This document shows, piece by piece, positions 44,170 to 50,400 of a stretch of 64,000 nucleotides of DNA (within the stretch, counting starts at the first letter, position 1; each line of letters opens with the position of its first letter). The position numbers and the translations under genes were made by a program. Location: contig NZ_KI421424.1 in assembly GCF_000472285.1 (NCBI RefSeq), positions 4,154 to 68,153 on the forward strand, read 5' to 3'. Under the pieces are notes generated by a model. That model was given only the letters and a program-made list of their open reading frames with translations. It was not told the origin of the DNA and searched no databases. This DNA is from Desulfuromonas sp. TF (GTDB lineage: Bacteria > Desulfobacterota > Desulfuromonadia > Desulfuromonadales > ATBO01).

Positions 44170-44544
44170 CTATCGCCCTTGCTGTAAATAGTCGTCGACC
44201 AGAGAGAACAGCTGCTCGAAATCGATCGGCTTGGACATGTACTCATCCATTCCGGCGTCGAGACATCTCTTTCTGTCACCGGCCATCGCATAGGCGGTCA
44301 AGGCAATGATTATCGTATGTCCTCCACGTTCGCTTTCCTTCTCCCTGATCTTTCGGGTCGCGCTCAATCCATCCATGACCGGCATCTGGACATCCATCAG
44401 AATGAAATCGTAATCGCTTTCCTCCCACGCCTCCACCGCGCTGAGGCCGTCCCCCACCACGGTGCAGTCTATGCGTTTGCGGGATAGAAGCGTCGACATC
44501 ATCTGGCGCACCGTCGGGTCGTCTTCCGCGATCAGTATCCTCAA
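44170..44544 (-). CDS. Single-domain response regulator
   Basis: A 124-residue CheY-like receiver with EDDP acidic pocket, phospho-acceptor Asp51 in LMDVQMPVMDG, the ALTAYAM Thr/Ala and conserved Lys in YMSKPID. There is no output domain. The start is TTG at 44544 with AGGAGGAG 5 nt upstream; the open frame upstream is not credible. The sequence resembles receivers split off hybrid kinases, which fits the kinase gene immediately downstream. Confidence 0.9.
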   Translation of the reverse strand: MRILIAEDDPTVRQMMSTLLSRKRIDCTVVGDGLSAVEAWEESDYDFILMDVQMPVMDGLSATRKIREKESERGGHTIIIALTAYAMAGDRKRCLDAGMDEYMSKPIDFEQLFSLVDDYLQQGR

Positions 44545-44678
44545 TTGTCTCCTCCTCTGCCGCCCCAAAACAGGGCTAGCTCTAGGATAGCAACGGGGTA
44601 AGGCCAAGTAAAGCCCCCTCCAAACGGCCGCACCCTGCTGCCACAGAATTCCTCGCAGAAACAAAAAAGCATCCCCGC

Positions 44679-44706
44679 TTGACTTGCCGATATCGGCAGA
44701 TATAGT
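44679..44706 (+). promoter_or_regulatory. mraZ promoter with palindromic spacer
   Basis: TTGACT (44679-44684) and TATAGT (44701-44706), 16-nt spacer. The spacer contains a perfect 12-bp palindrome, GCCGATATCGGC (44686-44697), which could be an operator. Confidence 0.65.
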
Positions 44707-44707
44707 T

Positions 44708-44742
44708 GTGGTAATTAGTGGGAGTTGGTGGTTAAACGTGGG
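44708..44742 (+). promoter_or_regulatory. Four MraZ-box repeats at 10-bp spacing
   Basis: GTGGT at 44708, GTGGG at 44718, GTGGT at 44728 and GTGGG at 44738 are spaced exactly 10 bp start to start. MraZ is known to bind direct TGGGN repeats at this spacing ahead of its own gene. They lie directly downstream of the -10, so bound protein would block transcription. Confidence 0.8.
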
Positions 44743-44762
44743 CAAATCTCAGGGAGTAACGG

Positions 44763-45221
44763 GTGGAGTTTTTTGGCGAACACTTCAAATCCCTTGACGA
44801 TAAGGGCCGCGTCAGCATCCCCAGGGAGTTCAGGGACGTGCTGACTCAGGCCGGGGGAGAGGAAGGCCTGGTCGTCACCAAGAACATGGACGGGGGGCTC
44901 ACCGCCTACCCCCCCGAGGAATGGGTCAGGTTCGTCAAGGGACTCGAGCAATGCGCCGGCGGCAAGAAACGCACGGCCCTGAACCGCCTCTACCTCGCCC
45001 CAAAAACAGAGGTCCTTCTCGACAAGCAGGGACGGATCCCGCTGAGCAAGGCCCAGCGCAAGTGGGCCGGCATCGGGGAGGACGACCGGGAGATAGTGGT
45101 AGTCGGCAATTTTCGGCGTATCGATATTTTCAGCCCTGATCGCTACCGCGAGGTAGTGGGGAGCGACGTTGAGCTGATCATGAGGGATGAAGAGTTGATC
45201 AACAACCTTGATCTTCCTTGA
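44763..45221 (+). CDS. mraZ: MraZ transcriptional repressor, orphan copy
   Basis: A 152-residue MraZ with both SpoVT/AbrB-like halves: SLDDKGRVSIPREFRDVL in the first and LDKQGRIPLSKAQRKWAGI in the second. MraZ normally heads the division and cell wall cluster, regulating mraW-ftsL. Here it is followed by a terminator and no mraW, so it is a stand-alone copy. The start is GTG with GGGAG upstream. The four upstream repeats suggest autoregulation. Confidence 0.92.
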   Translation: MEFFGEHFKSLDDKGRVSIPREFRDVLTQAGGEEGLVVTKNMDGGLTAYPPEEWVRFVKGLEQCAGGKKRTALNRLYLAPKTEVLLDKQGRIPLSKAQRKWAGIGEDDREIVVVGNFRRIDIFSPDRYREVVGSDVELIMRDEELINNLDLP

Positions 45222-45234
45222 CGAAAGAGGGATG

Positions 45235-45269
45235 CCCCATCGGTCCGTGATAACGGGCCTTGGGTTTTT
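45235..45269 (+). terminator. Terminator directly after mraZ
   Basis: CCC...GGTCCGT, loop GATA, ACGGGCC...GGG, then TTTTT: a nested stem starting 14 nt after the mraZ stop. Confidence 0.75.
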
Positions 45270-45342: not shown

Positions 45343-45633
45343 ATGGGAAGTCGTGCAATCCACCACGCCGGAGGGAACATTTCTTTTAACGGGCGAACCT
45401 CGTACCATTCTGATGTTTTCAGGACCCTTGAGCGTTGCAGGTACCACCTGCTCAGGAACGTGATCCCCATCCTCCTGATCGTGGTTGGTACCAGTTGGAT
45501 AACACTGCTGCTGACCGAGCAGATCTACACGGCCAAACTGGCTTGGGAAGAGCGGTCTTCGGTAGCAACGCTGAAGATACAGCAGGGCGCTGCCATAAAT
45601 ACCCAAGAGGCCGGCAAAGCGCAGTCTCTGTAG
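45343..45633 (+). CDS. Small single-pass membrane protein, unknown function
   Basis: A 96-residue open frame with a good ribosome binding site (GGGAGG 9 nt before the ATG). A basic N-terminus is followed by one membrane helix (HLLRNVIPILLIVVGTSWI) and a short charged tail ending GKAQSL. The arrangement, N-in with a single helix and a small exterior tail, recalls FtsL in outline only. Without homologues I cannot tell whether it is real; composition and the ribosome binding site favour it. Confidence 0.5.
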   Translation: MGSRAIHHAGGNISFNGRTSYHSDVFRTLERCRYHLLRNVIPILLIVVGTSWITLLLTEQIYTAKLAWEERSSVATLKIQQGAAINTQEAGKAQSL

Positions 45634-45736: not shown

Positions 45737-48130
45737 CTAAGCTCCCCAGAAATCAGCAATCTCCCTCAGGATGCTGCCGGAAACCAGTTCCGTCGCATCG
45801 GATTCGAACCAGTCGGCCGGCATGGATCGGGTGTAGCCCGGTTCAATGAACCGGCTGTCCATGAGGACAATCAGCCCGCGGTCGGTCTCGGAGCGGATCA
45901 CTCTTCCGGCGGCCTGAATCGCCTTGGCCATGGCGGGTATCACATAGGCGTAATCGAATCCGGCGCCGTACTTCCGCTGATAATATTCCTTCATCTGCTC
46001 TCGTTCGAGATCATAACTGGGCAGCGGCGGCCCGACCACAAAGGCCCCGATGACCATGTCCCCAGCGTAGTCCATCCCCTCGGCGAACGAACCTCCCTGC
46101 ACGGCAAAGACAATCGTGGGATCCTCAGGGTTTCGCAGACTGTCGACGACGGTCTCTACGGCGGAGGCCTTCATCCCCCGTTCCTGCCTCAGCACGGTGA
46201 AGCCTTCAGGGACTCGAAAGAGAGCGGCCACTCTTTCAAGGAAGTCGAAGCTGGGGAGGAACACGAAATAGTTGCCGCGGCGCAATACCGTTATTCGTTC
46301 TACGGCATCGGCGATCCTGGCATAATTGCTTTCGCGGCGGGAGTATCTCGTGGAGATCTGAGGAATGATCAGAAGCTTTCGCTTCTCCGTCGGAAAGGGG
46401 CTTTCGAATTCCGCCGTCCTCACTCTCTCCGCATCCAGACCGGAGAGCCGCACGTAATAATCGAAAGGTTTCAGCGTTGCCGAGAACCCAGCCACCTGCT
46501 CGTATTCCCCATAGCAATCCTTCAGCATGGCAGAGGCATCGCAGCAGCTGATCTTGATTGTGCCGCCGGTCGGATGGGGATGAAAGGTGGTGAAGAACTC
46601 CTGTCTGCCGGGATCGCCGGCGTACTCCAGCATTTCCGTGAACTCAGACCAGTAAAAGCAGAGGCGCAGGACCACATCCTTATTCTTTATCTCCACGTCG
46701 GAGTCGAGGTAGCGGGACAAAAAGGCGCGAAGCCTGGCATCCTGTTCGAGAAAGCAATCTCCCGGCGGATCGATCCGCATCGGCCCTGGTCTTTCACCCT
46801 GGCGGCAGGACTCCACTGCCCGGATGCAGCCGTCTAGAAGCTCCTCCGCCTCGCGCCGGAAGCGGGCCGGGAGGTCGCGGATCTCTTCACGCATCCTCTC
46901 CAGCGTGACGGAGGAGAGGCCCGGAGAGTAATAGTCCATGGCCCGGGCGGGGAGATTATGGGCTTCATCGATCACCAGGCTGGGCTTTCCGGCCTGATCG
47001 ATGCCGAGGTCCGTCACGCGGCCCAGCGCCGAACGCGGAGCGAAGACGTAGTTGTAGTCGCAGATGACGACATCCGCCTCCTGGGCGCCTTCCAGCTGCA
47101 ATTCGAAGGGACAGACCTGGTATTGCTCGCCCAGATCGCGAAAGGTGCGGGCCTTCAGCTTCCTCTTTCGCGCCAGGATCTCGACAAGCTCGTGAGCCTG
47201 GACCTTCGCGTAATAATCACGGGCGTACTCACAGTATTCGGGGCTGCACAGCGGCTCGTCCTTGAAGCAGATTTTGGCTTTTGCCGTGATCGAAAGGGAT
47301 TTGACGAGCGCGCCTGTCCCCTGAAAACGGGTGACCGCGTCCTCGGCAACCGAGTGCTGGCTGTTTTTCGGTGTGACGTAGACCGTTTTCTGCCCCCGGC
47401 TCAGCGCTTCCCGGAGCACGGGATAGAGGACTCCGACGGTTTTCCCGAGCCCGGTAGGGGCTTGGACTAGAACTGGTCTCCCCTCCGTCATTCCCTGCTC
47501 GATCTCCTGCATAAGTTCGACCTGACCGGGTCGCGGGTTCGGGAAGGGAAACATGAAGCGGGACGCGATTTTCCGCCGCCTGGCCGCACGCTTTTTCGCC
47601 CGTCTTGCGTCCACCACGAGCTCGTCGAGACGGGAGTTCAGCCATTGTTCATAAAGGGGGAGATCGAGGGTAACGTCGAGATCTTGGGATTCGCCGCTGC
47701 GGGAGGAGACGAGGTGGAAGGAAAGTGCGGGAGGGACGCCGTGCTCGCGCCAGTAGAAGTATCCGTAGGTCAGAAGCTGCAGGCCATAGGGGTGGTCCAT
47801 CGGGTTGTCAGCGAGCCGGCGTCCAAGCTCCGGGATGTTGAAACCGGATTTGATTTCCTCGATCTTCGGCAGATCGTGCTTGAAGAGACCATCCATCCGG
47901 CCGTCGATCCGGAAGCGATACTCCTCCCGATCGAACAGAGAGCTTATCGCCACTTCGGACTGGTACAGGGGATCGTCCTTCTCCCTCTTCTTCTGCACGC
48001 GGACATGGATCTCCTGCCCATCGGCGGCTGAGCATCCATACCCCGAATGAGCTTCAATGCTTCCGGTACGGGGTACCGGCAGGGCAAAATCGCGCAGAGA
48101 GATCGTGATGAGTTTCGTCGCAGCACTCAC
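45737..48130 (-). CDS. Nuclease-fused Fe-S superfamily 2 helicase (DinG/XPD-like)
   Basis: A 797-residue protein. The N-terminal 110 residues are a Cas4/PD-(D/E)XK-like nuclease (RIDGRMDGLF then KIEEIKSG). Residues 170-750 are a Rad3/DinG-type helicase with Walker A APTGLGKTVG, Fe-S cysteines in ICFKDEPLCSPEYCEYA and VCPFEL, DEAH in VIDEAHNLP, and motifs IV-VI at the C-terminus (VIRSETDRGLIVLMDSR). It should unwind DNA or R-loops 5' to 3', possibly with end processing. The start is GTG overlapping the hypF stop (GTGA). Confidence 0.88.
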   Translation of the reverse strand: MSAATKLITISLRDFALPVPRTGSIEAHSGYGCSAADGQEIHVRVQKKREKDDPLYQSEVAISSLFDREEYRFRIDGRMDGLFKHDLPKIEEIKSGFNIPELGRRLADNPMDHPYGLQLLTYGYFYWREHGVPPALSFHLVSSRSGESQDLDVTLDLPLYEQWLNSRLDELVVDARRAKKRAARRRKIASRFMFPFPNPRPGQVELMQEIEQGMTEGRPVLVQAPTGLGKTVGVLYPVLREALSRGQKTVYVTPKNSQHSVAEDAVTRFQGTGALVKSLSITAKAKICFKDEPLCSPEYCEYARDYYAKVQAHELVEILARKRKLKARTFRDLGEQYQVCPFELQLEGAQEADVVICDYNYVFAPRSALGRVTDLGIDQAGKPSLVIDEAHNLPARAMDYYSPGLSSVTLERMREEIRDLPARFRREAEELLDGCIRAVESCRQGERPGPMRIDPPGDCFLEQDARLRAFLSRYLDSDVEIKNKDVVLRLCFYWSEFTEMLEYAGDPGRQEFFTTFHPHPTGGTIKISCCDASAMLKDCYGEYEQVAGFSATLKPFDYYVRLSGLDAERVRTAEFESPFPTEKRKLLIIPQISTRYSRRESNYARIADAVERITVLRRGNYFVFLPSFDFLERVAALFRVPEGFTVLRQERGMKASAVETVVDSLRNPEDPTIVFAVQGGSFAEGMDYAGDMVIGAFVVGPPLPSYDLEREQMKEYYQRKYGAGFDYAYVIPAMAKAIQAAGRVIRSETDRGLIVLMDSRFIEPGYTRSMPADWFESDATELVSGSILREIADFWGA

Positions 48131-50400
48131 CGGCAGGCATGTCCTGCGATCACCGCCTGTCCGAGGGCCAGGCCGCCGTCGTTGGGGGGAACAAGGGAGT
48201 GGGTGAGCACTTCGAAGCCGGCGCGCCGAAGGATCTGCACGCTCTTTTCCGTGAGATAGCGGTTCTGGAAAACGCCGCCTGAGAGGGCGACGCGGGACAG
48301 GCCGGTGTCGCCGCGCAGGAGCGCGCAGGTCTCGGCGATGACGGCGGCAAGGGTGTTGTGGAAGCGGGCGCTGACCACCCCCGCCGCCACGCCGCCACGC
48401 AGGTCGTCCACGATTGCCCGGATAGCAGCGGCCTGCTCGATGATGTAGCACTCCCCGGCATGGTCGATGTCATAGGGATAGAACCCCGCCTCCCCTTCCC
48501 CCTCGACCGCCATCTCCAGTTCCAGCGCCGCCTGCCCTTCATAGCTGATCCGGCTGCGGATTCCCGCCAGCGCCGCCACGGCATCGAAAAGGCGCCCGCA
48601 GCTCGAGGTAAGAGGGGCGTTGATTCCCTTCTCGATCATCTGCAGCAGCAGCGTGCGTTCCCTTTCGGGAATTTCCTCCACCACCGGCAATTCCGGCAGG
48701 TCTCGACCGTAGGCGAGGTGGAGGTAGCTGAGGGCCATGCGCCAGGGCTCCTTTGTGGCCGCGTCGCCTCCGGGCATCGGCACATAGGCGAAATGCCCCG
48801 CCCGCCGGTATCCGGCGCAATCCCCCATCAGGAACTCACCCCCCCAGATATGGCCGTCGTCGCCGTATCCGATGCCGTCGAAGATGACCCCGATCGCCTC
48901 TCCTTCGGCACCGTGTTCGGCCAGGCAGCTCGCCAGGTGGGCGTGGTGGTGCTGCACCGCCACCCGGCGCACCCCCTCGAGCCCCTCGGCGTAGCGGGTG
49001 GAATGGTAATCGGGATGCAGATCGTGAGCGACGATCCGCGGACGCACCTCGAGGATCCCCTGCAGATGTTCGATCGTCCTTTCGAAGGAGCCGCAAGCTT
49101 CTGCATTCTTCAGGTCGCCGACGTGCTGGCTCAGATAGGCCCGGTTGTCCTGGGTGAGGCAGACGGCGTTCTTGAGCTCCGCCCCCACCGCCAGAACCGA
49201 AGGCTGGTCCTTGGAGAGAAAAACGCCGCGCGGCACAAACCCCCGGGAGCGGCGCAGCAGCAGGGCTTTACCGGCCATCACCCGGGCGATGGAGTCGTCG
49301 GTGCGGGTATGGATGCGCCGGTCGTGGGTGAGGACCGCATCGGCGATGCCCCCGAGGCGTACGACGGCCTCGCCGTCCTCGAAGACGATCGGTTCGTCGG
49401 AGAGGTTGCCGCTGGTCATGACCAAGGCGAGGAAGGAGTCTTTGAGCAGCAGATAATGCAGGGGAGCATAAGGGAGCATCACGCCGAAATAACGGTTTCG
49501 CGGGGCGATAGTCGCCGAGAGAGGATGTCCCGCCCTCTGCCTCAGCAGAACGATGGGGCGCTCGACACCGGAGAGAAGGCGCAGTTCGTCCACCTCGGCA
49601 TGGGCGTACTCGAGAACTTGGGCGCTCGACCAGGACATCAGGGCGAAAGGCTTCTCGTCCCGCGCCTTGCGCCGGCGCAGTTTCCGAACAGCGTCATCGT
49701 TCATCGCATCGACGGCGAGATGATACCCTCCTATCCCCTTGATCGCCACGATCTTCCCCCGGCGCAGCAGTTCGGCCGTCGCCGCAATCGGATCTTCCGC
49801 AGACATCCTTCTCCCCTTCTTGTCGAGAAGAGAGAGGCGGGGACCGCATTCGGGACAAGCGTTGGGCTGGGCGTGGAAGCGGCGCGAGGACGGATCGTCG
49901 TACTCGGCGCGGCAGGCCGGACACAGAGGGAAATCGGCCATGGTGGTGTTGGGACGATCGTAGGGGATCGCCATGACGATGCTGTATCGCGGTCCGCAAT
50001 TGGTGCAATTGATGAAGGGGTAGCGATAACGACGGTTTTGGGGCTCGAACAGTTCGTCGAGGCAGTCGGGGCAGACGAAGGTATCGGGGGAGATCTGGGC
50101 CGTCTTGGCCGCCTCCCCTTCGCTTTTGCGGATGACGAAATCGGTCTCGCCGCTCACCGGGACTCCGGCGACCTCAAATCGGGAGATGGAAGCCAGGGGC
50201 GGAATCTCCTCCCGCAGGGCCCAGAGAAAACGGGCCAGCCTTTTCATTTCCCCTTCCGCCTCCACGGTGACGCCCCGGCTGTCGTTGCGCACCCAACCGG
50301 CAATTCCCCATTTCAGCGCGGTCTGATAGACAAAGGGACGAAAACCGACTCCCTGAACGATTCCTTCGATTTCGATGCGCCTGCGCTGCAGATCGGACAT
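48127..50400 (-). CDS. hypF: [NiFe]-hydrogenase maturation carbamoyltransferase HypF
   Basis: A 757-residue HypF. The acylphosphatase-like domain has GVGFRPFVYQ; two zinc-ribbon repeats carry CPDCLDELF/CTNCGPR and CPACRAEYDD/CPECGP. A YrdC-like domain follows, and the Kae1-like domain has VQHHHAHLASCLAEHG and ALSGGVFQNR. It makes the carbamoyl group used for the cyanide ligands of [NiFe] hydrogenases. No other hyp or hydrogenase gene is in the window. Its stop overlaps the helicase start by 4 nt, an odd coupling. Confidence 0.96.
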   Translation of the reverse strand: MSDLQRRRIEIEGIVQGVGFRPFVYQTALKWGIAGWVRNDSRGVTVEAEGEMKRLARFLWALREEIPPLASISRFEVAGVPVSGETDFVIRKSEGEAAKTAQISPDTFVCPDCLDELFEPQNRRYRYPFINCTNCGPRYSIVMAIPYDRPNTTMADFPLCPACRAEYDDPSSRRFHAQPNACPECGPRLSLLDKKGRRMSAEDPIAATAELLRRGKIVAIKGIGGYHLAVDAMNDDAVRKLRRRKARDEKPFALMSWSSAQVLEYAHAEVDELRLLSGVERPIVLLRQRAGHPLSATIAPRNRYFGVMLPYAPLHYLLLKDSFLALVMTSGNLSDEPIVFEDGEAVVRLGGIADAVLTHDRRIHTRTDDSIARVMAGKALLLRRSRGFVPRGVFLSKDQPSVLAVGAELKNAVCLTQDNRAYLSQHVGDLKNAEACGSFERTIEHLQGILEVRPRIVAHDLHPDYHSTRYAEGLEGVRRVAVQHHHAHLASCLAEHGAEGEAIGVIFDGIGYGDDGHIWGGEFLMGDCAGYRRAGHFAYVPMPGGDAATKEPWRMALSYLHLAYGRDLPELPVVEEIPERERTLLLQMIEKGINAPLTSSCGRLFDAVAALAGIRSRISYEGQAALELEMAVEGEGEAGFYPYDIDHAGECYIIEQAAAIRAIVDDLRGGVAAGVVSARFHNTLAAVIAETCALLRGDTGLSRVALSGGVFQNRYLTEKSVQILRRAGFEVLTHSLVPPNDGGLALGQAVIAGHACR

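Follow-up and report, generated by a model that had tools for sequence, protein, structure and literature searches.

The mraZ gene of this window (the whole 64-kb stretch of DNA that was analysed) encodes a second MraZ, here called MraZ2, and is not a displaced regulator of the dcw (division) cluster, since the same genome (G000) carries a normal mraZ at that cluster. Together with the next gene, sTM, mraZ2 probably forms an autoregulated two-gene operon outside dcw, in which MraZ2 would repress its own promoter. Few bacterial regulators are as conserved as MraZ. To our knowledge it has been met almost exclusively as the product of the first gene of the division cluster, and we know of no trigger for it. 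Judged from its sequence, mraZ2 is more than a stray duplicate: it is a paralogue of MraZ that lies away from the division cluster, in a unit of two genes that is conserved, and it looks like a division regulator that has been re-used for a different small module. New in mraZ2 are its location, its partner and its patchy distribution; an operator of four boxes had been seen before. The features of the locus are as follows.

44679..44706, + strand: sigma-70-type promoter, TTGACT-16-TATAGT, 10/12 matches to consensus
44685..44698, no strand: perfect 14-bp palindrome TGCCGATATCGGCA within the promoter spacer
44708..44743, + strand: four MraZ boxes, GTGGT, GTGGG, GTGGT and GTGGG, starting at 44708, 44718, 44728 and 44738 (exact 10-bp spacing)
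44763..45221, + strand: mraZ2, a 152-aa MraZ paralogue with a GTG start and intact DxKGR/DKQGR motifs in both halves
45236..45269, + strand: terminator-like hairpin (45236-45264) followed by T5 (45265-45269), 14 nt past the mraZ2 stop and before the sTM gene
45343..45633, + strand: sTM, the conserved mraZ2 partner, a small protein of 96 aa whose N-terminal part is positively charged and which is predicted to span the membrane once (helix at residues 40-58)

Genomic Context

The preliminary description of this DNA saw a stand-alone mraZ without mraW and proposed looking for another mraZ at the dcw cluster of the same genome. One is present, on another contig, in an intact cluster (mraZ-mraW-ftsL-ftsI-murE-murF), and its product shares 45% identity with MraZ2. 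A rearranged or mis-assembled dcw cluster was rejected on this ground. The related suggestion of a rearranged dcw regulator also fails, as mraW adjoins mraZ at every dcw locus fetched from the order and the extra copy falls in a clade of its own. No mraW is found near mraZ2, either at the window locus, as first described, or at its orthologues, whereas the dcw copy has one. The neighbours of mraZ2 are instead a response regulator/histidine kinase pair upstream and, past the sTM gene, a Rad3/DinG-type helicase downstream. These neighbourhoods differ by genome; in G096, for example, rlmN and ndk are found. A response-regulator receiver gene (window 44170-44762) is divergent from the mraZ2 promoter, with the histidine kinase gene beyond it.

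Nearly all relatives have a single MraZ per genome. Among 246 genomes of the phylum that are at least 95% complete, only G000 has four MraZ half-matches, equal to two genes. Three half-matches instead of two were observed in G408 and G476, and these genomes may have extra half-MraZ proteins. Loss of the dcw mraZ from G135 was not concluded, that draft assembly lacking mraW as well.

Distribution and Phylogeny

MraZ2 is found in 5 of 136 genomes of the order. Its orthologues in G096, G135 and G115 are 66-78% identical to the window protein, and a contig-edge fragment in G097 is 74% identical, so that only four loci are complete, a small number. All other MraZ matches in the 136 genomes have at most 50% identity, and those whose loci were fetched all proved to be dcw copies. 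A wider search of the class (277 genomes) and of a phylum sample (395) at E<=1e-34 detected no further MraZ2; the extra matches were dcw copies of one family with about 50% identity. In the collection of papers that was searched, none on extra MraZ copies was found.

In a maximum-likelihood tree of 52 sequences the five MraZ2 proteins form one clade (support 100/96), while the dcw MraZ of G000 groups elsewhere, among the dcw copies. A recent duplication was rejected because of this separate clade and the 45% identity to the dcw MraZ. The dcw MraZ proteins of G115 (L074) and G016 (L021) are long branches nearest the MraZ2 clade, possibly through long-branch attraction or possibly as a hint of the source of MraZ2. 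The holders of MraZ2 span four families (f1, f8, f17 and f5). Of the genus g41 genomes that were searched, only two carry it. Patchy presence, a single clade and differing neighbours suggest transfer, and the mraZ2-sTM unit has probably moved between families of one order. An ancient duplication with many losses could also produce this pattern. Phage or plasmid origin was considered and rejected: matches in a phage collection and in a plasmid tblastn search were all below 40% identity, and a scan of viral contigs yielded no relative.

The MraZ2 Protein

MraZ2 is full-length with both DNA-binding halves intact. A Pfam search matched PF02381 twice (57.3 bits against a cut-off of 23), which places the protein in the family. 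It falls below the NCBIfam equivalog cut-off for the dcw-cluster repressor MraZ (best 84.6 bits against 168), and with TIGR00242 (73.7 bits, cut-off 98.35) it is likewise outside the equivalog. The AlphaFold model has a mean pLDDT of 94 and resembles solved MraZ structures, including 1n0e and 9r4j, with TM-scores of about 0.67-0.84 at 21-24% identity. Residues D12, K14, R16, G90 and R91 are invariant across 42 aligned MraZ proteins, and MraZ2 has the arginine motif in each half. Beside the first DNA-binding motif, D13, R21 and E22 are specific to the MraZ2 clade; dcw copies mostly have P/A, A and R/K there. These three residues would fit a changed box specificity. With dN at 0.16-0.18 and dS either saturated or 1.5, the protein sequence of mraZ2 is under purifying selection.

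In two holders of one genus, G096 (L069:4543-4560) and G097 (L072, first 200 bases, - strand), the aligned start position of mraZ2 holds none of ATG, GTG and TTG. FFGE is preceded by ATC or AAC in these genes, and G096 has a TGA just upstream. A rare start codon, a sequence error and the beginning of decay would all look alike here.

Promoter and Operator

The promoter with its palindromic spacer and the four GTGG boxes at exact 10-bp spacing ahead of mraZ, all named in the preliminary description, are present (44679-44743). The promoter search found one such site where 0.3 was expected. Orthologous promoters combine TTGACA with TATAAT, TATAGT, TAAAGT or TAGAGT. The palindrome TGCCGATATCGGCA is absent from these orthologous promoters, and the 64-kb window contains three perfect 14-bp palindromes; since it is neither conserved nor rare, it is probably incidental.

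The operator has GTGK boxes (K = G or T) at 10-bp spacing downstream of the gene's own -10. The first box begins 2 nt past the -10 hexamer, and the run covers the expected transcription start. Dinucleotide shuffling of the upstream region, repeated 5000 times, never gave as many as three exact boxes, and three exact GTGG boxes at 10-bp spacing have no second occurrence in the 4.4-Mb genome. The mraZ2 promoters of all five holders (G000, G096, G097, G115 and G135) are built alike: a -35 hexamer, 16-17 bp, a -10 hexamer and, 2-4 nt later, GTGG-type boxes at 10-bp spacing. The G115 run opens with GGGG. That promoter (L071:9071-9131) has about six boxes in 10-bp phase, not four.

The dcw promoters of the order share this geometry, with boxes that are mostly GTGTCAAA, GTGGGGAA or GGCCA-type; those of G000 read GTGTAAAAAA-GTGTAAATTT-GGGCC. 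GTGG is absent from the dcw operators of G000, G096 and G097, which have boxes of the GTGT type, whereas it accounts for nearly all boxes of the mraZ2 operators. GTGG and GTGT boxes occur side by side in the dcw promoter of G115. In Mycoplasma the MraZ boxes follow (AAAGTGKN3)3 (PMC5282649), and those of Burkholderia cenocepacia are four repeats of 7 nt, separated by 3 nt, that lie past the -10 and overlap the start site (PMC7761207). Given these published boxes and the same geometry at dcw promoters, the four-box operator of mraZ2 is, as far as its sequence goes, ordinary in kind, and what sets it apart is nearly uniform GTGG. A cell that holds two MraZ proteins whose boxes apparently differ (GTGG and GTGT) offers a clean natural comparison. 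The pair could reveal how a MraZ selects its boxes and whether a circuit unrelated to division can be run by such a protein.

Other targets were sought in the five holder genomes with a strict pattern, GTGK-N6 three times (10-bp spacing), which passes over degenerate or two-box sites. The promoters that it matched were those of mraZ2 and the dcw promoter of G097; three more matches fell within coding genes (G000, G115 and G097). The counts were no higher than those of a reversed control pattern, so that only promoter matches are informative. Further MraZ2 target promoters in G000 were dismissed, as the extra matches lie inside coding genes. The preliminary description had proposed a search for such repeats elsewhere and had considered a second MraZ that regulates other targets. 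It is a second MraZ, and besides mraZ2 itself sTM is its likely target; beyond this narrow sense, the strict pattern gave no further promoter in the 4.4-Mb genome.

The Partner Gene sTM

At all four complete mraZ2 loci (G000, G096, G135 and G115) the next gene, about 50-120 bp downstream, is sTM, which encodes a protein of 79-97 aa that has a positively charged N-terminal part and is predicted to have a single membrane helix. The term stand-alone thus holds for mraZ2 with respect to dcw and not with respect to this conserved neighbour. The window copy of the sTM protein is only 23-35% identical to the other three, but the pairings of these proteins (G000 with G096, G135 with G115) mirror the MraZ2 tree. 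No promoter-like site is found between mraZ2 and sTM in any locus examined, which leaves the mraZ2 promoter as the only visible one for sTM.

The terminator-like hairpin between the two genes was seen as described, 14 nt past the mraZ2 stop (-18.9 kcal/mol, z -3.07). Among the mraZ2 loci compared, hairpin and T-run are specific to G000. A hairpin of this kind could cut sTM off from the mraZ2 promoter, which counts against a two-gene operon. It had been taken for the gene's own terminator. The structure exists; however, it is unconserved and the gene behind it has no promoter-like site, so mraZ2 is not isolated by it. Partial termination is probably its effect.

No credible Pfam, NCBIfam or PHROG family match was found for sTM. 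A profile search detected relatives in 28 genomes, none of them outside the order (of which 136 genomes were covered), and mostly solitary rather than beside mraZ. At 14 loci with solitary sTM genes no MraZ boxes were found within up to 400 bp upstream. Four of the solitary genes adjoin hypF (L085, L087, L089 and L094). In the window hypF (48127-50400) is 2.5 kb from sTM in the same convergent orientation, with the helicase gene between, and from these positions the mraZ2-sTM pair may have formed at an ancestral hypF-adjoining place. One genome, G132 (5.5 Mb, contamination 7%), has three copies of the sTM family on contigs C174, C170 and C305.

Proposed Regulation and Alternatives

For repression by MraZ2 the scheme would run as follows. 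MraZ2 would assemble like other MraZ proteins and bind the four GTGG boxes just past the -10, over the start site. It would most likely repress its own promoter, and MraZ2 and sTM would both be held at a set level, with the hairpin of G000 lowering sTM relative to MraZ2. Repression is inferred from the position of the boxes and from MraZ of E. coli and M. genitalium, which acts as a repressor (PMC8475190). Members of the sTM family are also present in genomes of the order that lack mraZ2, so sTM does not need MraZ2. In Neisseria elongata, dcw transcription falls when mraZ is lost and rises when it is overexpressed (PMC9395523). Because MraZ raises dcw expression there, the sign of MraZ2 regulation is uncertain, and MraZ2 might activate its own operon instead. 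This is unlikely: boxes that start 2 nt past the -10, over the expected start site, normally block RNA polymerase, and the E. coli and M. genitalium proteins repress. A tentative case can be made for cross-regulation, in which MraZ2 and the dcw MraZ each bind the other's boxes, so that sTM is coupled to division-cluster regulation. Known MraZ reads GTGK (PMC5282649), so a single protein could read GTGG as well as GTGT, both clades keep the GR motifs without exception, and the mixed boxes of the G115 dcw promoter are consistent with this. The separation of box types in G000, G096 and G097 and the clade-specific D13, R21 and E22, compatible with changed specificity, point the other way.

Other alternatives concern the nature of the unit. 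It could be a transferable cassette: a MraZ whose box preference has changed would control sTM, and sTM would feed back on MraZ2, for example by membrane tethering. This is rather improbable; if true, it would describe an envelope sensor derived from a division regulator and working independently of the dcw cluster. Still less can be said for a mobile pair resembling a toxin-antitoxin system, with an autoregulating antitoxin of AbrB/MraZ fold and sTM as a hydrophobic membrane toxin. The two small adjacent genes, the operator of their own, the patchy distribution and the differing neighbourhoods would suit such a pair, AbrB-type folds are used by antitoxins, and the Pfam label for MraZ is 'putative antitoxin-like'. 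But sTM matches no toxin family, its solitary relatives without a MraZ partner in many of the 28 genomes are unlike a toxin, and no close relatives were found in phages or plasmids. That mraZ2 is a recent accidental duplicate or a displaced dcw fragment with no role of its own, a thought encouraged by the single MraZ of nearly all relatives, is hardly credible for a protein so distant from its own dcw MraZ, in a separate clade, with a conserved partner and operator and under purifying selection.

Comparison with Known Systems

Like the dcw MraZ proteins of E. coli, M. genitalium and B. cenocepacia, MraZ2 has the two-half fold and the invariant GR motifs. Its gene likewise has GTG-type boxes at 10-bp spacing just past its own -10, and by analogy autoregulation would be expected. 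It differs from them in lying outside dcw with no mraW downstream, in coexisting with a dcw MraZ, in forming its own clade and in having the sTM partner. The autoregulated two-gene layout proposed for mraZ2-sTM resembles operons of MazE/AbrB-type antitoxins. These antitoxins and MraZ have a related swapped-hairpin DNA-binding fold. In contrast to them, MraZ has two tandem halves and forms rings, and the sTM partner is no known toxin.

A regulator outside dcw with MraZ-like GTG direct repeats in its own promoter has been described in Mollicutes, where it is HsdC (PMC5282649). The likeness is drawn on operator and location; HsdC differs by 1 nt in the spacing of its repeats and regulates a restriction-modification operon. 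Structures released in February 2026 show MraZ of M. genitalium bound to its own promoter and to one with four boxes (PDB 9sz7 and 9r4j). The natural target of that protein is the division gene cluster, and MraZ2 is only 21-23% identical to it. Four boxes are nevertheless present at mraZ2 as well, and the predicted fold of MraZ2 matches those chains.
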